A stretch of 21,740 nt of DNA from Candidatus Poribacteria bacterium (GTDB lineage Bacteria; Abyssobacteria; SURF-5): assembly GCA_016215705.1 (NCBI GenBank), contig JACRIR010000219.1, positions 1 to 21,740 on the forward strand, read 5' to 3'. The first letter of the stretch is position 1. Each line of letters starts with the position of its first letter. Positions 2 through 20,148 of the stretch are shown here, piece after piece. The notes under the pieces were generated by a model. That model was not told the origin of the DNA. It saw only the letters and a list, made by a program, of their open reading frames with translations, and did no database searches. The translations under genes and the position numbers were made by a program.

Positions 2-73
2 TGAACAGCCGTCTCCGCCGATGGCATTGCCGTCATCACATAACTCGCCCAACTCGAGAGCGCCGTTACCGCA
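2..73 (-). other. Partial DUF4215 / myxococcus-type cysteine-rich repeat in the giant protease
   Basis: The last 24 visible residues (about 2662-2685) read [16 protein letters not shown] followed by GGDGCS. This fits the CGxGxxExGExCDDGN...GDGCS pattern of the DUF4215/TIGR02232 disulfide-rich repeat common in secreted proteins of Myxococcales and related uncultured bacteria. The repeat is cut by the window edge, so further copies or a C-terminal anchor may follow. Confidence 0.75.
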
Positions 74-3000
74 TGTTTGAGCGTCGCAGGAGTCGCCGAC
101 GCCGTCGCCGTCGAGATCAGCTTGAGCCGGGTTGTTCACAGTCGGGCAGTTGTCGCAGGCGTCGCCATATCCATCGCCGTCGCCGTCGGCCCATCCCGGA
201 TTCGAGACGGTGGGGCAGTTATCGCAGTCGCTGCCCAGTGAATCGCTATCGGGGTCTGCGCTGAAGGTGTTTGGGTTGGGATCGAAGATGTTCCAACAGC
301 CGTCGCCGTCGAGGTCGTCGTCGCAGACGTCGCCCGAGCCGTCCGCGTCGGTATCCGATTGACTTGCATTCGAGATGGCAGGGCAGTTGTCGCATGCGTC
401 GCCATATCCATCGCCGTCGCCGTCGGCCCATCCCGGATTCGAGACAGTGGGGCAGTTATCGCAGTCGCTACCCAGCGAATCGCCATCGGGGTCTGCGCTG
501 AAGGTGTTTGGGTTGGGATCGAAGATGTTCCAACAGCCGTCGCCGTCGAGGTCGTCGTCGCATGCATCGCCCGAGCCGTCCGCATCGATATCCGATTGAC
601 TTGCATTCGAGATGGCGGGGCAGTTGTCGCAGGCGTCGCCATATCCATCGCTGTCGCCGTCGGCCCATCCCGGATTCGAGACCGTGGGACAGTTATCGCA
701 ATCGCTTGCCATCGAATCGCCATCGGGGTCGGCGCTGAAGACGCTTGGATTAGGATCGACAATATTCCAGCAGCCGTCGCCATCCATGTCGTCGTCGCAT
801 GCGTCGCCCATGCCATCCGCATCGACATCCGATTGGTCGGCATTAGCGATGGACGGGCAGTTGTCTACATCACCGGACACACCGTCGCCATCCGTGTCAT
901 TGTTGGGGTCGTTCGGCCAGGGGTCACACACGTCGCCGGCGCCGTCGGTGTCGGAATCGAGTTGGTCGGGATTAGAAGCGCCGGGACAGTTGTCGCAGGC
1001 GTCGCCGTCCCCGTCGCTATCCGCATCCACCTGGCTTTCATTTGGGGTATCCAGGCAGTTGTCGCAGGCGTCGCCGAACGAATCACCAAGGATGATTGTG
1101 TTCATGTAGATATCATAGTTGCCGTTTCGCGCATCCTGCCACACGGTGTAGATGCGTCTGTTTCCGTCACCGGATATTTGCGGATACAGGGACAAGAATG
1201 GTCCCGCGCCCGTTTCAAGTCGGATATCAGGCGACTGCCAGGTGGCCCCAAAATCCGAGGAGTAGTTGAAATAGACGTCCTGTGTAAAGACCTCCTGCCA
1301 TGTCACGAAGACACGGCCGTTCGCGTCGCTGAAAATCTGCGGATAGATCGCAAAGCTATAATCAGTAGTGTCGATCCTAGTGTCAGAGGGCTGCCACGTG
1401 GCGCCATAATCTGACGAATGGTTGAAATAGATATTGTAGAAAATCCCGGCGCGCGTATCGAACCACGTGACATAGACATGTCCGCTCGAGTCAAATGACA
1501 CTTGCGGCCAAGCCGAAGTGGATGCGCCAGGGGTATCCGTGTCGAGCCGGATATCAGCGGTTTGCCAGGTCTGGCCATAGTCAGTCGAGTAGTTGAAATA
1601 GATGTCCTCCAAGCCATTCCGTTCATCGTGCCATGCGACATACACGTGGCCGGCGGAATCATTCGTGATTTGAGGCTCGTTGGAGTCTGAAACGCCCGCG
1701 CCGTTCGTGTCAATCCTGATATCAGCCGGTAACCACGTGATGCCGTAATCCGATGAACGGTTGAAGAAGATATCCCACTGTCCATTTCTGTTGTCGGCCC
1801 ACGTCACATATACACGGCCCGAGGAGTCATTCGATATCTTCGGAGAAGAGGAGATGGAAGAGCCTGCGGCGCTCGTATCGAGCCGGATATCGGACGGCAA
1901 CCATGTGATCCCGTAGTCAGATGAACAGTTGAAATAGACATCTCCCAGCCCGTTCCGCAAGTCATACCATGTCACATACACGTGGCCGCTCAAGTCGCTC
2001 GCGATTTCGGCGAACTGAGAATGAGATGCTCCGGCGGCGTCGGTGTCGAGGCGGATATCGGCCGGCTGCCACGTGGCGCCATAGTCGGAAGAATGGTTGA
2101 AATAGATGTCGGCGGCGCCGCTACGCGCGTCGGACCACGCCACATACACGTGTCCGCTCGAGTCGCAGGCAATGCGAGGAAGATTCGCATGCCCGGAACC
2201 CGGCATTGAGGTGTCGAGACGCGTATCTGAGGGCTGCCACGTAACGCCTGCGTCGCTGGAGTAGTTGAAATAAATCCCCGCGCCGGGAACATTCCGCGTA
2301 TCTTGCCACACGACGTAGACGTGGCCGCTCGCATCACTCGCTATCTGTGGCGCTTGCGATTCAGCCGCGCCGGGCAAGTCCGTGTCGAGCCTCGTGTCCG
2401 CTGACAAAGGAGCGGCAGCGTCCAAATCCGAATTGGCCTGGTCGATATTCGCGGTTGCGAGGCAGTTGTCGCAAGCGTCGCCCACTCCGTCGGTGTCGGA
2501 ATCAGTCTGGCCGGCATTGGCGGTTGTCGGACAATTGTCTATATGGCCTGACACTCCGTCGCCGTCGATGTCATTCTGCGGATCGTTTGGCCAGGCGTCG
2601 CAAGCGTCGCCAAGCGCGTCGCCGTCGGCGTTTGCCTGGTCCGTATTGGCGGTTGTCGGACAATTGTCTATATGGCCTGACACTCCGTCGCCGTCGATGT
2701 CGTCTTGCGGATCATTCGGCCACGGATCGCAGGCGTCGCCCGCGCCATCGCCATCCAGGTTCGTTTGATCTTCGTTTGCGACGCCGACGCAGTTATCACA
2801 AGCATCGCCGAGGGAGTCGCCGACAGTGATCGCGTTGAAGAAAACATCTTCGCTGCCATTTCGCTGGTCCAACCAAACAACGTAGGCCTGCCTGTCTTGA
2901 TTCAATGCGATGCGCGGTTCAGTGGACCTGGCGCCTCCCGCCGCGTCGGTATCGAGCCGGATATCGGCGAGTTGCCATGTGGCGCCGAAATCGATCGAAT

Positions 3001-6000
3001 AGTTCATATAAATGTCATTCAAATAGCTCGAGTTGCGGGAGTCCTGCCATGTCACGAAGACAAGACCTGTTCCCTGGCTGGAGATTTGAGGCACATCGTA
3101 TACGTCACCTGATCCGGCCGGACTAGTGTCGATGTGGATGTCCGAGGGCTGCCATGTTGCGCCATAATCGGAGGAGCGGTTGAAATAAACGTCCTGATTG
3201 CCGTTCCGCATTTCAAGCCAGGAAACATACACATTGCCATTCGAATCGCTGGAAATCCGGGGGAGCCCTGAGCTCGCCGCGCCCGAAGTATCCGTATCGA
3301 GGCGGATGTCCGAGGGCTGCCATGTGACTCCGTAGTTCGTAGAATAATTGAAATAGATGTCAGCCGACGAACCATTGCGCACGTCAGGCCACACGACGTA
3401 GACGTGGCCGCTCGAGTCGCAGGAAATGCGTGGATACCACGAGTAGGCTGCCCCTATCGCGTCCGTGTCGAGGCGGATGTCGGCGGATTGCCACGTCGCG
3501 CCAAAATTCATGGAATAATTGAAATAGATATCGGCCTGACCGTTTCTGGTGTCATACCACGTCACGTACACATGGCCGAGCGAATCACTCGAAATCTGTG
3601 GTTCGTGGGAGGAACCCACTCCGGCCGTATCCGTGTCGAGGCGGATGTCGGCGGATTGCCACGTCGCGCCGTAGTCATTCGAGTAATTGAAGTATATGTC
3701 GTTGTTGCCGCTCCGCCGATCAGCCCAAACTGCATAGACATGGCCTTGCGAGTCGCAGGAAATCTCGGGCATGATCGATACTGCCGCCCCCGGCGCATCC
3801 GCATCCAGCCGCCTGTCCGAAGGCTGCCACGTCGCTCCAAAATCCGTCGAGTAGTTGAAGTAAATATCCGGGTTTGCTCCGTTGCGTTTGTCTCTCCACA
3901 CGACGTATACGTGGCCGGTTGCGTCATTGCAGACCTGAGGAAACTCCGACATGGCCGCTCCCGCCGCGCCCCTGTCAAGCCGGATGTCGCTTGGAGCCCA
4001 CGTCGCTCCTGAGTCAGATGAATAGTTGAAGTAGATATCGCTTTGGATGTTCCGGGCGTCGCTCCAGACAACATATACGTGGCCAAGCGCGTCGCCGGAA
4101 ATATCGACGTACTGCGACCTGGACGCGCCCGGCGCATTCGTATCGAGCCGGACATCATTCGGGAAGGTCACTCCCCAACTTGCGTCCGAATTCCCCTGGC
4201 CGGGATTCGCATCGACCGGGCAGTTGTCCTCATCAACGCAGAAACCGTCGCCGTCTATGTCATTGTCCGGGTCTGCCGGACAGTTATCACACGCATTGCC
4301 TATTCCGTCGCTGTCAGCGTCGGCCCAGCCTGGATTCGATATTGCGGGGCAGTTATCGCAATCGCTCCCGAGCGTGTCTCCATCCGGATCGGGGCTGAAC
4401 AAATTAGGATTCGGGTCAACCATCCATTCATATCCGGGCGCAGGCGGATAATCCCAACAGCCGTCTCCGTCTCGATCATTGTCACACACGTCGCCCATCG
4501 CGTCGCCGTCTATATTTGATTGATTAGTGTTCGGTACATTGACACAGTTGTCACATGCGTCGCCGACCCCGTCGGCGTCCGTGTCAGTAAAGTAACCCGG
4601 CAGATTAGGACAATTATCGCAGTCGTTCCCTATCATGTCGCCATCGGGGTCAGCGCTGAAGATGTCGGGATTAGGGTCCATGATATTCCAGCACCCGTCG
4701 CCGTCACGGTCATCATCGCAGACATCGCCTAATCCGTCAGAATCGATATCCGCCTGTCCGGCATTTGCCACTGACGGGCAGTTGTCACACGCATCGCCGA
4801 CTCCGTCGGCGTCCCCATCCTGCCACCACATGTTCGGAATGGCAGGGCAGTTGTCGCAGTCGTTCCCCCAAGTGTCTCCGTCGGTGTCCGGGCTGAAGGT
4901 GTCAGGATTGGGGTCGAAGATATTCCAGCACCCGTCGCCGTCACGGTCATCATCGCAGACATCGCCTAATCCGTCAGAATCAATGTCCGCTTGACCGGTG
5001 TTCGCCACGGAGGGGCAGTTATCGCACGCATCGCCGACTCCGTCGGAGTCTCCGTCTTGCCACCCTGGGTTCGGAATGGCAGGGCAGTTGTCGCAGTCGT
5101 CCCCAAGCATGTCGCCGTCGGTGTCCGGGCTGAGTGTGTTCGGATTGGGGTCAATCATATTCGGACAATTGTCCCCGTCACGGTCGCCATCACAGACATC
5201 GCCTGAGCCGTCGGAGTCCATGTCCGATTGGCCGGAATTCGCATCAAACGGACAATTGTCGACGTTGCCGCAGACCCCGTCTCCATCAATGTCATTATTC
5301 GGATCGTTCGGACACGCATCCACGTCGCCGCAGATGCCGTCTCCATCCGCGTCATTGTTGGCGTCGTTCGGACAGACATCGCAAGCGTCGCCGGCCGAGT
5401 CACCATCTGAGTTCTGTTGTCCGGCATTCGCAGTTGCGGGGCAATTATCGACATTACCGCAGACCCCATCTCCGTCCATGTCATTATTCGGATCGTTCGG
5501 GCAGATATCCACGTCGCCGCAAATGCCGTCCGAATCTATGTCATTATTGGCGTCGTTCGGACAGATATCGCAAGCGTCACCGTCCGAATCACCGTCTGTA
5601 TTCTGCTGTCCGGCATTGGCGACAAACGGGCAGTTGTCGACGTTGCCGCAGAGACCGTCGCCGTCAATGTCATTGTCGGGGTCGAGCCAGCAAATGTCAC
5701 AAATGTCGAATATCCTGTCACCGTCCGTATCAGGTGAGGATATGGTGGCTTCGGGAGTATTCCCATAGGCGCCCATGTTGATTCTGCCGCCGTTCGGCGA
5801 CGGTTCGTTAAAGTAGTCAGATGTTGGATCTCCGGAATCAATCGCGGGAGAGCAAAGCTGGAGATGGCAATCTCCGGCTGCCGGATTCACAAACAGCGGA
5901 TCACTGTTTATGTTGCCGGCGCCCCAATTGAGAGTGTCGCCGGGGTCAATTTGAATGGCGGCAGCGCCTCCTTCTATGATACTGTAAGAGACACTAACCG

Positions 6001-8056
6001 ATGACGTATTGAGAATCGTGATCTCCGCGTCGGCAGGCGCTATGTTATCCCACAAGATGCAGTTGGTCAGGGTAGGCCCCGAAAGCGAAGAGGAACAAGT
6101 GCCGCCGCCGCTCGAGCCGGCCGAGTTGCCACTAAGTGTGCAGTTGCTGATTGCCGGGGATGATTGCTCGCTGCAGATTCCGCCGCCTGAACTGGAGGCG
6201 GCGTTGTTCCTGATGATGCAATTGGAGATCGTGGGCGAAGAGTTCTCGCAGAGTATTCCTCCGCCGGCGCCATTGGGCCAACTACCGGAGACGGAGCCGT
6301 TGATAATCGTGAAGCCGTCCACCAATGAAACAAATGTCTCGCCGCTGTTAAAGATAAAGCCTCTGCCGCTGCCTTCGCAGTCGATGATGCAATTTGTCGG
6401 CCCGTTAAGCGATTGCACCGTTATCGCCCTGCCGCCGAAACTAAGATTCTTGTTATTGGAACCGGTGTAGGCGCCGTCGTTGACAATGATCGTGTCGGTG
6501 TCGTAGGAATTGTTAATAGCAGTCTGAATATCACAGTATGGATTCAACAATGTCCCTGCGCCAGGACACACAGCATCGTCGTCAACATAGATGATGACGG
6601 GTGGACTCGTGCCGAATTTTGCGTATATCTCCGCGCCCGGAGTTGTTCCCAAATCAACGATATCCCAAACGGCAACGCCCGAGTTGGAGCCATCGTATTT
6701 GTCGCTCGAGGGTGTGGTATTTGAGCCGATTTCGTCCCCTTCATTGTACAGGTCATTATTGTCAACACTGGAGAATCCCGTCTCAATCTGCTCCAGTCCG
6801 TCTGCTTCCATTATTCTGAGAAGCTTATGACTTGTGTACGAGTTGTCGTATTTAAAGTTATTGCCGGCGGTGTTCAGAGTGGCATCGACGTGCCAGATGA
6901 CGAGGCCGTCAGGCGAAAACCAAAAGGGATTGTCATTGTCGTCATTCCCTATGTTCTGCCTGTTCTCCACCATAAAGAACTCGCTGAAGATATTTCCCAG
7001 GCCAACTCCCGGCCAAATAAGGACAGCGTCCCCGGATGTCGCGGAATCATCCAGTGTGATGACTTGGCCTGCGGCGGAGACGACCGTCGGAGTGATCCAC
7101 TCGAGCATCCACTTGCTGAAACAATTGTGGTCCCAATAGGCATTATCCATCATGTCAAAGTTGCCGACGCCGCCGTCGGGGCCAACATTTGGATCGTAAT
7201 CGTAGTAGTCAGGCAGGCCGAGGGCATGTCCTGTTTCATGGATTGTGGTGCTTGGGTCTAAGGATTCCCATTGCCAGGAATACTTCTTAAGGGTCTTGCC
7301 ATCGAGCATATAAGAGCTGTCGTTCCATGAGGTTTGATATGCCCACCAGAACGAAGCCCAAGCGCCACTCGGTCCGGTCCATATAACGATGAAGTAGTCT
7401 ATGTCACCGTCGCCGTCGTTATCGTACTGGCTGAAATCGTGTGCGCCATCATAAGAATTCAAAGCCTCCCTTATCAGATTCTGTCGTCCGGCCGACGTCT
7501 GCGCGACTGAGCTACGGTTATACGCCGCGTGGTACCAACCGAGGGTAGCTCCACCACCCAAATCAAGGAGACCGTGTGAAGAGCGGTCATAGTAACTGGT
7601 CAGGCTTTCCCGAGGATAGTCAGCAGGTTCGCCATCTCCATAAAGCATATCGTCCACGACTGTTTCGGAGACGTGGTGGATATAGTCATCAAACTCGATG
7701 AGCAGCGCAAAGGTCTTTACCGTTCCGGTCGTCGGCATGCCCTGCCAGGCCGACGGTGGCGCCAGCATCCGGTCTAGTTCGGGCCCCTTGATCCCTCGCG
7801 ATTCAAGAATCACCCGCATCAGTTTGTTTCTGGCTCTTTCCACAAGGCTTGGATCAACTTTGTGGTTGCCAATACTGTAAGCCATATCGAGATGTTCGGC
7901 GAATACGCCTTCTGCCTTGAGCTGCTCTACCTCCCCGGGCCGGGGAGGCTCTAAAGCAAGAACCTGTCCCGCGCTGAAGCAGGCGATGATGAGCGACAAG
8001 CAGAGCGCCAGATATGTTCTATTAAGCATCGTGGGCCGGATTCGCCTGAAGGTCAT
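2..8056 (-). CDS. Giant secreted M6-type metalloprotease with beta-helix, TSP3 and BNR repeats (3' end outside window)
   Basis: The frame stays open for 2,685 codons from ATG 8056 to the left edge; codon phase was checked at several points (4151, 2822, 2390, 1088, 71). The start is supported by a G-rich ribosome site (GAGGGGGG) about 8 bases upstream; an in-frame ATG at 8029 lacks one. Residues 1-36 form a signal peptide (hydrophobic [15 protein letters not shown], then VLA). The M6 (immune inhibitor A-like) domain spans about 40-475: zinc motif [11 protein letters not shown] has His273, Glu274, His277 and Asp283, with a likely Met-turn (DMMDN) near 302 and a Ca-type DNDGDGDID loop. About 490-765 is a right-handed beta-helix ending in a choice-of-anchor Q-like segment ([12 protein letters not shown]). 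TSP3 arrays lie at 776-1295, 1745-1886 and 2324-2661, BNR arrays at 1302-1745 and 1887-2323, and a DUF4215-type repeat starts at 2662. Role inferred: a secreted or surface-held, calcium-stabilised protease with binding propellers. Its substrate is unknown. Confidence 0.93.
74..1087 (-). repeat. TSP3 calcium-binding repeat array 3 of the giant protease
   Basis: Residues about 2324-2661 are DxDxDG-type thrombospondin type 3 motifs, alternating D(A/V)CDNCP with DGDGxGD loops. Much of the array is a 79-residue super-unit containing the marker [14 protein letters not shown]. In this family such repeats bind calcium and form a stiff stalk. The array directly follows the second BNR block through the junction [12 protein letters not shown]. 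Confidence 0.85.
144..854 (-). repeat. Three tandem 237-bp direct repeats inside TSP3 array 3
   Basis: The marker gggcagtt(g)tcgca recurs at 144, 381 and 618, and gggcag again at 855, giving an exact 237-base period (79 codons) and three full units. Units one and two differ at only about ten positions over roughly 195 bases compared by eye; the third is more diverged. The exact in-frame period points to recent tandem duplication in the coding sequence. Confidence 0.85.
1088..2398 (-). repeat. BNR/Asp-box repeat array 2 (eight units) of the giant protease
   Basis: Residues about 1887-2323 hold eight successive units of about 50-59 residues. Each has the order RLDTD, a variable stretch, P(Q/R)I(S/A), GHVYVxWxDxRNG, DIYFN and an Asp-box SSDYGATW. 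The eighth unit ends after DIYMN without its Asp-box, as expected if the chain closes a circular propeller. BNR repeats form beta-propeller blades in sialidases and many secreted binding domains. The catalytic residues of a sialidase are not evident, so a binding or structural role is more likely. Confidence 0.82.
2399..2821 (-). repeat. TSP3 repeat array 2, linker between the two BNR blocks
   Basis: Residues about 1745-1886 are TSP3 motifs. Two neighbouring stretches share nearly identical sequence encoding [20 protein letters not shown], seen in the DNA as repeats near 2520-2590 and 2650-2715. It joins the two propeller blocks like a rigid calcium-bound linker. Confidence 0.82.
2822..4153 (-). 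repeat. BNR/Asp-box repeat array 1 (eight units) of the giant protease
   Basis: Residues about 1302-1745 comprise eight units of about 56 residues with the same plan as array 2 (RLDTD...GHVYVVWxDxRNG...[14 protein letters not shown]). The last unit again stops after VFFN and passes into [13 protein letters not shown], the same type of exit junction as array 2. This suggests that a block of TSP3 plus eight BNR units was duplicated as a whole. Confidence 0.82.
4160..5731 (-). repeat. TSP3 repeat array 1 of the giant protease, with 237-bp and 189-bp sub-periods
   Basis: Residues about 776-1295 are TSP3 motifs. The part nearest the beta-helix repeats with a 189-base period (63 residues; cagaccccgt-type markers at 5271, 5460 and 5649) built on [17 protein letters not shown]. 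The rest repeats with the same 237-base period as array 3 (gggc markers at 4608, 4845 and 5082). One unit (4347 to 4608) is 261 bases long because eight extra residues containing PPAPGYEW sit beside its CW motif. Confidence 0.85.
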
Positions 8057-8190: not shown

Positions 8191-8377
8191 TCGGCGTGTT
8201 GCCCAAATGGCAACAGCCGTTTGTCATTCTGAGCGAAGGGCCGCAGGCCCGAGCGAAGAATCTCTGTCTATAGGTCGCAAATTCGCAGGAAAACGAGAGA
8301 TTCTTCGTCGCTTCGCTCCTCAGAATAACAATCCTGACAGCCCTATGAAGCGCAATTTCATTCGGGCAACACGCCGT
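8191..8377. repeat. Nested inverted repeats in the divergent intergenic region (MITE-like)
   Basis: An outer perfect 13-base inverted pair, cggcgtgttgccc at 8192-8204 and gggcaacacgccg at 8364-8376, with partly matching flanks, encloses an inner inverted pair. The inner left arm is tgtcattctgagcgaag...gaatctc (8222-8263); the right arm is gagattcttcg...cagaataaca (8297-8330). The inner 'TCATTCTGAGCGAAG / GAATCTC' type is known as a dispersed non-coding repeat in several bacterial phyla. No transposase gene is present. The following 8380-8640 holds nothing I can assign. Confidence 0.6.
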
Positions 8378-8651
8378 ATTCATTTGACCACTCCCTGTTT
8401 TTTGAGACAGACGAAGGGATTAAGAAAGGAACGCGCTTCTTGCTCAGGAAAGCTTGATTGAAAGAAAGGAGTAAAGGAATTGTTCTTCGCAAAGTCCCGC
8501 CTCGCAACCCTATAGGTCACCTTTGCGTCTTGTGCCAGTGAGCGGGATTTTATCATCGAATCCATATTCTGTCAAGCGTTTTTACCGCGGATTCTGCGTC
8601 TTTGGCGGCGGGCTTTGCAGTGGGGTCTTGCCGGGGCTCTGAATCTGGGGG

Positions 8652-17898: not shown

Positions 17899-17942
17899 GG
17901 GTGTGTGGACCTAACGAATCTGACTGTTCTCCGATAGTTGAC

Positions 17943-19343
17943 ATGTATACATTGATTTATGAGCCACCTCCCATGAAATCCAACTCCGGGCAACTGAGCT
18001 TGCCGCTTTCGAATTCTGATCCTGTCGAACAACTTGAGGACACGTCCCAGAGAAGGGACAAACGAATCAACAAATTGGAACCGAAAGACCGTGCCTTTCA
18101 TGACTGGTATCGCTTCGTGCTCTCTTTTCCTCCGCATTTGGTGCGCAAGTATCTTGACGACTTTGGCCTGAAAAGCAACCACGTTGTCCTGGATCCTTTC
18201 TGTGGGACGGGGACAACTCTTGTCGAGGCCAAACTAAGCGGAATCCGGACCATTGGTCTTGAGGCGAACCCCTTCGCGCATTTTGCCAGTTCCGTCAAAG
18301 TGGACTGGGAAATCGATTCCGACTTGCTTCGGGAGCGAGCGCGTGACATCGCAGACTCTGTCGTAAAATCGCTTCTGTCGCAGGGCATCGATGATGATCG
18401 GTCTTTTGATGATTCTCATGCCGATTTCTCGCTGAAGACGCTTGACGCCGAGGCTGAGAAGCTTTTGATAACGAACTCCATCAGTCCCCTTCCTCTACAC
18501 AAGACGCTTGTTCTTCTGGAACACCTAAAGAATCATCAGAATGAACGATACTATCGGCATGCGCTGCTGGCCTTGGCAAATGCGCTCGTCTTTAAGATCA
18601 GCAACTTGAACTTTGGGCCGGAGGTGGGAGTCGGAAAACAGAAGAAGGATGTCCCTGTAGTCGCTTGCTGGCTGTCCGAAGTAAATAAAATCGCTAATGA
18701 TTTGCGCCGTGTCGCTGGAAAACAGTACCTCGATTGCCGGGTTTTCCTGTCAGATGCGCGCGAGATCAGCCACGTCATACCGGCCGACTCTGTTGACGCC
18801 GTCATAACTTCTCCTCCTTACCCGAATGAGAAGGACTACACGCGAACGACAAGACTTGAGTCAGTGCTACTCGGATTCATCAAGAATAAGGTCGACTTGA
18901 GGAGGCTGAAGAAGAGACTTGTGCGTTCAAACACACGCGGTGTTTACAAGGAAGACAATGATCACACGTGGGTGGCCGCGCACTCAAGAATCGAGCAAAT
19001 CGCCGAATCGATAGAGGAGCGCAGAATAGAACTCGGCAAGAACTCAGGATTCGAGAGACTTTATCCGAAAGTGACCAGGCTGTATTTTGGAGGAATGGCG
19101 CGTCATCTGGCTGAACTACGCGATGTCCTGCGTCCCGGCGCAAGGCTGGCTTATGTCGTCGGCGACCAGGCTTCTTACCTCAGAGTCTTGATCCTGACGG
19201 GGGAACTATTGGTGGAGATAGCCGAAGCATTGGGCTACGAGTTCATTCGAACAGACCTTTTTCGATCTAGATTCGCCACAGCCACAAAGGAAGAGTTGCG
19301 CGAAGAAGTAGTCATCTTGCGCTGGACAGGAAAGAAGAAGTAA
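17943..19343 (+). CDS. DNA methyltransferase, SPPY-type (N4-cytosine or N6-adenine), 466 aa
   Basis: It methylates DNA bases using S-adenosylmethionine and is probably the protective half of a restriction-modification pair. The SAM-binding motif I is DPFCGTGT at 84-91 and the catalytic motif IV is TSPPY at 289-293. Serine before PPY is typical of N4-cytosine enzymes, though N6-adenine cannot be excluded. Motif I precedes motif IV with about 200 residues between, where a target-recognition region could sit. A late YVVGDQASYLRV segment resembles a conserved motif of this group. Start: ATG 17943 is used; GTG 17901 would add 14 residues and ATG 17973 remove 10, and none has a clear ribosome site. 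A 120-base sample of the gene counts 57 G+C, well below secA, so transfer is likely. Confidence 0.86.
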   Translation: MYTLIYEPPPMKSNSGQLSLPLSNSDPVEQLEDTSQRRDKRINKLEPKDRAFHDWYRFVLSFPPHLVRKYLDDFGLKSNHVVLDPFCGTGTTLVEAKLSGIRTIGLEANPFAHFASSVKVDWEIDSDLLRERARDIADSVVKSLLSQGIDDDRSFDDSHADFSLKTLDAEAEKLLITNSISPLPLHKTLVLLEHLKNHQNERYYRHALLALANALVFKISNLNFGPEVGVGKQKKDVPVVACWLSEVNKIANDLRRVAGKQYLDCRVFLSDAREISHVIPADSVDAVITSPPYPNEKDYTRTTRLESVLLGFIKNKVDLRRLKKRLVRSNTRGVYKEDNDHTWVAAHSRIEQIAESIEERRIELGKNSGFERLYPKVTRLYFGGMARHLAELRDVLRPGARLAYVVGDQASYLRVLILTGELLVEIAEALGYEFIRTDLFRSRFATATKEELREEVVILRWTGKKK

Positions 19344-19347
19344 CCAT

Positions 19348-20148
19348 ATGGCGACCTCGAAGAACCGGTACTCTCGAATCATAGAAGCAATCTTCAACAA
19401 GTACTATCAAAAAGGGGCAACCGAAATCTCCTTTAAAAGACCGGATATAACTCGAGCCGCTGAGGAGTTGGAGATTAGACTTCCCAAGAATTTGGGAGAC
19501 GTTCTTCACTCGTTCAGATACAGGGCCGACTTGCCCAACAGTATAGTCAAGAAAGCTCCGGAAGGATATGAGTGGATCATTCGTCCTGCAGGTCGCGCCC
19601 AGTATAAACTTGTCCTTGTTCCCAAAGTAGCCATCGGTCCTTCAGGAATGCTGGCGGAAACGAAAATCCCGGATGCCACGCCGGGAGTCATCGCCCGCTA
19701 CTCACTGACAGATGAGCAGGCGCTCTTGGCGAAGCTGCGCTACAATCGACTAATCGATATCTTCACCGGCCTCGCTTGCTATTCGTTTCAGAGTCATTTG
19801 AGGACAAGCGTGCCCGATATTGGCCAAGTCGAAACCGATGAAATCTACATTGGCATCGATAAGCGGGGTGCTCATTTTATCTTGCCGGTCCAAGCCAAGG
19901 GCAAAGCAGATAAGATAGGGATCGTTCAGATAGAGCAGGATTTTGCCCTTTGTGCGCGAAATTTTTCGGGATTGGTTTGTCGATCAATTGCCGCACAGCT
20001 TATGGAAAACCAACTTATTGCTCTGTTCGAACTTAAACAGAACGTCAAGGAAGGCATTCGAATCTCCGCCGAGAGACATTACAGGCTCGTGAATCCAGAA
20101 GATTTGTCTGCGGAGGAACTGGAAACGTACCGCAATCGTCCCATCTGA
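19348..20148 (+). CDS. Probable restriction endonuclease, PD-(D/E/Q)xK-like, 266 aa
   Basis: It starts 4 bases after the methyltransferase stop, as expected for a restriction partner. Residues 162-184 hold VETDEIYIGID followed by ILPVQAKGK: Asp164 or Asp171 and Gln182-x-Lys184 fit a PD-(D/E)xK nuclease site with Gln replacing the usual Glu/Asp, a known variant. The N-terminal 100 residues (RPDITRAAEELEIRLPKN, HSFRYR) look like a winged-helix DNA-binding region. I recall similar unnamed proteins beside DNA methyltransferases but cannot name a characterised enzyme or recognition site. The ribosome site is only a weak GAAGAAG. The gene converges on the acyl-CoA synthetase with a 29-base gap. Function is inferred from context plus the motif. 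Confidence 0.72.
   Translation: MATSKNRYSRIIEAIFNKYYQKGATEISFKRPDITRAAEELEIRLPKNLGDVLHSFRYRADLPNSIVKKAPEGYEWIIRPAGRAQYKLVLVPKVAIGPSGMLAETKIPDATPGVIARYSLTDEQALLAKLRYNRLIDIFTGLACYSFQSHLRTSVPDIGQVETDEIYIGIDKRGAHFILPVQAKGKADKIGIVQIEQDFALCARNFSGLVCRSIAAQLMENQLIALFELKQNVKEGIRISAERHYRLVNPEDLSAEELETYRNRPI

Follow-up and report, generated by a model that had tools for sequence, protein, structure and literature searches.

Whole domains nested inside TSP3 repeats of a giant M6-type protease from the Candidatus Abyssubacteria lineage

Introduction

What sets a very long M6-type protease apart, its size or the way in which its parts are joined? The question is raised by a gene at the edge of the window, that is, the whole stretch of DNA analysed, 21,740 nucleotides long, which is one entire contig (G000:C156) of an uncultivated bacterium from the subsurface. 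An earlier note on this DNA described an N-terminal M6 metalloprotease joined to a beta-helix, three TSP3 stalks, two BNR blocks and a cysteine-rich repeat, and considered both the length and the architecture unusual. In this study, the set of domains was found to be ordinary and the way of joining them unusual; the interest of the protein lies in the nesting of domains, not in its length.

Results

Gene, frame and contig join

The minus-strand frame 8056..2 runs for 2,685 codons with no stop, as the earlier note had read it, and is open to the contig edge, where the gene is truncated. The ATG at 8056 opens a signal-peptide-like sequence; an alternative in-frame ATG upstream, at 8383 (2,794 codons), is less likely as the start. 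When the last 300 bases of the window were compared with the organism's own genome, contig C74 was found to begin with an exact 141-bp overlap. The joined C156-C74 frame runs to a stop, giving a gene of 9,849 nt and a protein of 3,282 aa. GC at codon position 3 matches across the join (0.658 and 0.661), and both parts agree at each codon position. The overlap looks like an assembler k-mer; because the contigs break at a repeat with such an overlap, their join into one gene is likely, short of proof, and the final 597 residues depend on it. The features are as follows.

7952..8056, minus strand: start codon and signal peptide, read directly
6893..7705, minus strand: M6 metalloprotease catalytic domain (aa 118-388), by TIGR03296 and a profile match to InhA 4yu5
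7208..7240, minus strand: zinc motif HExxHxxGxxD (aa 273-283), with residues invariant in the alignment and a Met-turn candidate, DMMD, near aa 301-304
5741..6595, minus strand: right-handed beta-helix-like domain (aa ~488-772), by weak DUF5123, choice_anch_Q and NosD matches
4229..5731, minus strand: TSP3 repeats, first run, by PF02412
4184..4228, minus strand: split TSP3 repeat 1, N-half, by sequence and half-repeat scoring
2822..4183, minus strand: inserted BNR propeller 1 (454 aa), eight repeats, seven Asp boxes
2789..2821, minus strand: split TSP3 repeat 1, C-half, by sequence and half-repeat scoring
2471..2788, minus strand: TSP3 repeats, second run, by PF02412
2426..2470, minus strand: split TSP3 repeat 2, N-half, by sequence and half-repeat scoring
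1088..2425, minus strand: inserted BNR propeller 2 (446 aa), eight repeats, seven Asp boxes, with an AlphaFold2 model
1055..1087, minus strand: split TSP3 repeat 2, C-half, by sequence and half-repeat scoring
77..1054, minus strand: TSP3 repeats, third run, matching COMP 3fby at 4e-52
2..73, minus strand: start of a cysteine-rich repeat (TIGR02232), continued on contig C74
Contig C74 (L010 1-1934): remainder of the gene, by the 141-bp exact overlap and domain matches, with, in order, the cysteine-rich repeat, three MopE metal-binding motifs, an HYR domain and a C-terminal PxKF domain

The MopE, HYR and PxKF domains are what C74 adds to the domain search that the earlier note had proposed for the recovered 3' end. 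Two further features of the window were observed. Just upstream of the gene, at 8230-8330, lies an inverted repeat (agcgaag...gaagaatctctcg / gagattcttcgctc...cttcgctcagaatgac) that resembles a small mobile palindrome. An ORF at 19348-20148 without a Pfam or NCBIfam match directly follows a DNA methylase (17901-19343), and is a possible restriction partner.

Profile searches recovered the parts named in the earlier note: PF02412 (TSP_3) scored 307.1 bits in 26 stretches and, like BNR_2 and BNR_4, was above its cut-off; the beta-helix is indicated by sub-threshold matches only. The beta-helix module is present in many proteins of the organism's own genome, and several proteins across the phylum's genomes carry it at 49-63% identity. 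In one of these genomes (L045, G001:C50), as judged by eye, the same module follows a gingipain-like caspase-fold protease; in this lineage it is thus joined to different proteases. A similar tail, also ending in PxKF, is found in the protein on C187 of the own genome; it thus appears that the M6 protease was grafted onto a stalk that is standard in this organism.

The M6 protease

The M6 model TIGR03296 matched aa 118-388 at 137.5 bits (cut-off 110.8), and PF05547 alone fell just below its gathering score (20.6 vs 22 bits); a PF05547 profile search of the own genome listed only C65. A profile built from six M6 sequences found immune inhibitor A (4yu5) with an E-value of 3.4e-32. H, E, H, G, L, P, D and M are invariant in the six aligned sequences, and the five aligned homologues (28-45% identical) keep the zinc motif and the downstream methionine. 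The predicted structure of this part (mean pLDDT 48.8) was too poor for use. Judged from profiles and alignment, the protein is a predicted M6-type zinc protease with its catalytic residues intact, in agreement with the earlier note. It has in common with M6 peptidases of the immune inhibitor A type the catalytic domain, HExxHxxGxxD and the candidate Met-turn, but it differs from them in scoring just under the PF05547 cut-off, in its giant size, and in its TSP3 repeats and Asp boxes. Phage records searched with the M6 part gave no match.

M6 proteases are usually far shorter, as the earlier note held, with most sampled frames at about 550-1,300 aa. Length as the main novelty is nevertheless ruled out by M6 frames of 4,410 aa (L312, G177:C88) and 3,583 aa (L313, G258:C34), both without TSP3 or Asp boxes. 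The claim of an unusual architecture likewise stands in part: four other M6 giants of more than 2,600 aa contain no TSP3 and no Asp boxes, but a simple combination of M6 and TSP3 is found elsewhere (L249). Length and parts are therefore unusual but not unique. The own genome encodes a second M6 protease (L011, G000:C65, 3605-8287) of at least 1,561 aa, which runs off its contig end and in which the M6 domain is followed by FG-GAP-like and repeated Ig-like domains.

Whole domains inside single TSP3 repeats

The linear module order of the earlier note proved wrong. Each BNR block sits within a single TSP3 repeat, between two halves (…DQxNSD and GDSxGDACDNC) that together make one complete 26-residue repeat; the sequences before the inserts are NPGQGNSD (454 aa inserted) and NIDQANSD (446 aa inserted). 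Both blocks consist of exactly eight repeats, each about 56 residues long, with seven Asp boxes; the eighth Asp-box hairpin is absent, and the chain enters and leaves the TSP3 repeat in its place. In COMP and the thrombospondins, the DxDxDGxGD sequence forms a calcium loop. In the window protein, the DxDxDGxGDxCD loop is interrupted in these two repeats and uninterrupted in the remaining ones.

Nesting cases total 12 in three genomes of the phylum (Candidatus Abyssubacteria lineage), 10 of them outside the window protein. The own genome has six BNR inserts in three proteins (two in the window protein, one in C257, three in C16), and a LamG domain is inserted at the same joint in C187. G001 contributes three cases, with a CBM96, an NHL propeller and a LamG insert, and G002 two, both with NHL propellers. 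Four unrelated domain types (BNR, LamG, NHL, CBM96) thus occupy one identical point within the DxDxDG loop. The residue preceding the insert is D or E in 12/12 cases and the second residue after it is D in all 12, the insert always splitting two acidic positions of the DxDxDGxGD loop.

The repeats were scored with a TSP3 model built from 96 repeats of other lineages only. Rejoined 26-residue repeats (n=12) averaged 47.2 bits (40.6-51.9) and intact repeats of the lineage (n=49) 46.6 bits (38.2-54.0); the half-repeats with their native neighbours reached 27.8 and 16.4 bits. By this scoring, neither half alone is a TSP3 repeat, and the rejoined halves are a normal repeat with no residue lost. Unpaired TSP3 ends were rejected on the rejoined scores together with the identical phase, and on sequence grounds the nesting of domains inside TSP3 repeats is demonstrated.

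These data bear on the simplest alternative, an ordinary mosaic in which the propellers stand in line between separate TSP3 arrays that happen to stop and restart mid-repeat, which would make the halves fragments without a partner. Proteins with BNR or NHL domains in line with TSP3 do exist (L132 and L148 of Acidobacteria; L277), but in truly linear proteins the adjoining TSP3 repeats are complete, and here 12/12 junctions are in the same phase, with halves that complement each other without loss or duplication around four unrelated domain types. A linear mosaic seems already contradicted by the junctions and is highly improbable.

Two other repeat arrangements were observed in the phylum. In L183 (G001:C12), a TSP3 region at aa ~1400-1620 is likewise interrupted, though not at the same point (DNCPNTPNGVF ...), so insertion may occur at more than one. 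The C-terminal part of a 3,810-aa protein (L184, G002:C111) carries a long run of another repeat, CPxDPxKxxPGxCGCGxxDTDxDxDGTxDCND.

Fold of the inserted BNR blocks

AlphaFold2 modelled block 2 with its flanks as a propeller, mostly at pLDDT 80-94; at the N-terminal end of the propeller lies a short strand (77-79) and at the other end the long last strand (511-519). Each block is predicted to be a closed propeller. The TSP3 flanks had pLDDT below 50, so loop closure over the insert is not visible in the model. Foldseek with this model returned Asp-box enzymes and the GH protein BT3686, and VIA-align placed CylK first (Z 27.1), followed by the Photorhabdus lectins PLL and PHL (Z ~25, rmsd 3.6-4.0). 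The propeller lectins PLL, PHL, BP39L and CV39L share the fold and quasi-identical blades (Z 22-25), but are 10-15% identical to the window propeller, which has eight repeats and is nested in a TSP3 repeat. Within one block, the blades have a mean identity of 59%, and such near-identical blades would agree better with repeated binding sites than with a single active site of dedicated catalytic residues, as in a sialidase or other Asp-box enzyme. With respect to whole-propeller copying within the genome, same-position blades were barely closer to each other (0.593) than to others (0.572).

The nesting could be real but structurally neutral: the loop would then be broken, flexible and free of calcium, with the insert hanging from it, and the arrangement would simply have been inherited and copied. 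The low-confidence flanks of the model would agree with this, as would the fact that 6/12 cases are one propeller family in one genome. It is nonetheless unlikely, given that acidic residues persist at the calcium-ligand positions flanking the insert in 12/12 cases, that rejoined repeats score as intact ones do, and that four fold types use the same point.

Distribution of the nesting

A motif-rule detector found no split TSP3 repeat in 82 distinct TSP3 proteins (427 repeats) from outside the lineage, a sample that draws in part on a phylum of 132 genomes rich in TSP3 and in which many loci span only ~1.5 kb either side of the match. In the lineage's own proteins (the phylum being three genomes in the searched set), the same detector found 11 split repeats in eight proteins with 65 intact repeats; it missed one true case, the twelfth, which was found by eye. 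A propeller scan of 84,980 species gave 79 loci with 90 propeller ORFs. None of these 90 ORFs from other species is nested in TSP3, and the two that also have TSP3 are in linear order. BNR proteins of Scalindua, Verrucomicrobia, Omnitrophota and others have propellers 47-55% identical to those of the window protein but, unlike it, none nested in TSP3. When 386 genomes were searched with LamG and NHL cassettes, matches that covered both halves were confined to this lineage. The near misses G231 and L132/L148 were rejected as linear in order, and in L248, L278 and L280 the motif check flagged no TSP3 repeat.

COMP and thrombospondin-2 (3fby, 1yo8) share the calcium-loop TSP3 repeat with the window protein, but their matched stretches contain no domain inside a repeat, whereas in the window protein whole domains break the loop. 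In a literature search, with subscription journals mostly outside it, no work linked TSP3 to the nesting or insertion of domains. The reading that such nesting is widespread among bacteria was rejected on its absence from the 82 TSP3 proteins, the 90 propeller ORFs and the 386-genome cassette searches; by the repeat sequences, it appears limited to this lineage among those sampled.

Discussion

The window protein is best explained, with somewhat better than even confidence, as a secreted 3,282-aa M6 protease on a TSP3 stalk whose split calcium loops hold inserted binding heads. Its export and protease chemistry are suggested by intact motifs. From the parts we infer protease activity, a surface location, a ligand, side display and calcium closure, which could act together as follows. 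In this lineage, whole domains would be accepted by the EF-hand-like calcium loop of TSP3 (DxDxDGxGD): the chain would leave the loop past the second acidic residue, fold a domain with neighbouring ends, and re-enter to complete the loop. After export, calcium would fold the stalk, and its binding would close both halves beneath the inserted domain and hold the domain ends together, fixing the domain as a rigid side head on a rod. The propellers most likely bind to a glycan or a repetitive surface, because their near-identical blades are like those of glycan-binding propeller lectins, and the N-terminal protease would cut nearby protein. The calcium-stiffened arm with two binding heads of the earlier note is retained here insofar as the stalk is of the calcium type, the heads are of the binding type by profiles, and their nearest folds are lectin-like; its linear order is not.

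Another role is conceivable for such a protein. It may serve mainly in structure or cohesion, as does MtsC, the TSP3 protein of myxobacterial cell-cell cohesion, with the protease trimming or maturing it and having no outside targets. The MtsC model (NF047638) scored 565.5 bits, above its cut-off of 350, and the sister proteins on C16, C257 and C187 share stalk, heads or tail without a protease. The score, however, stems from the TSP3 repeats alone, the M6 and inserted propellers of the window protein lie outside the MtsC match, and the M6 catalytic residues are intact. A MYXO-CTERM sorting tail was looked for in the full protein and not found, the C-terminus being the PxKF domain. We consider this role rather doubtful, and still take it more seriously than any other rival of a secreted protease with inserted binding heads.

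Beyond this one protein, the TSP3 calcium loop may be a general plug-in socket of this candidate phylum, one point taking propellers, LamG and CBM domains, with calcium both stiffening the stalk and clamping the heads; we regard this as evenly balanced. If true, domains would be displayed here by a modular system of another kind than that of known TSP3 proteins, whose domains are shuffled end to end.

In sum, it is hard by design to place a whole domain within a metal-binding loop and still keep that loop, yet one lineage appears to have managed this at a single site with four unrelated folds. Linear domain lists miss such nesting, so other repeat-rich surface proteins merit the same check. 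Should calcium close the loop beneath the inserted domain, the arrangement would offer a natural, testable rule for setting rigid side domains on a rod, together with a calcium switch.
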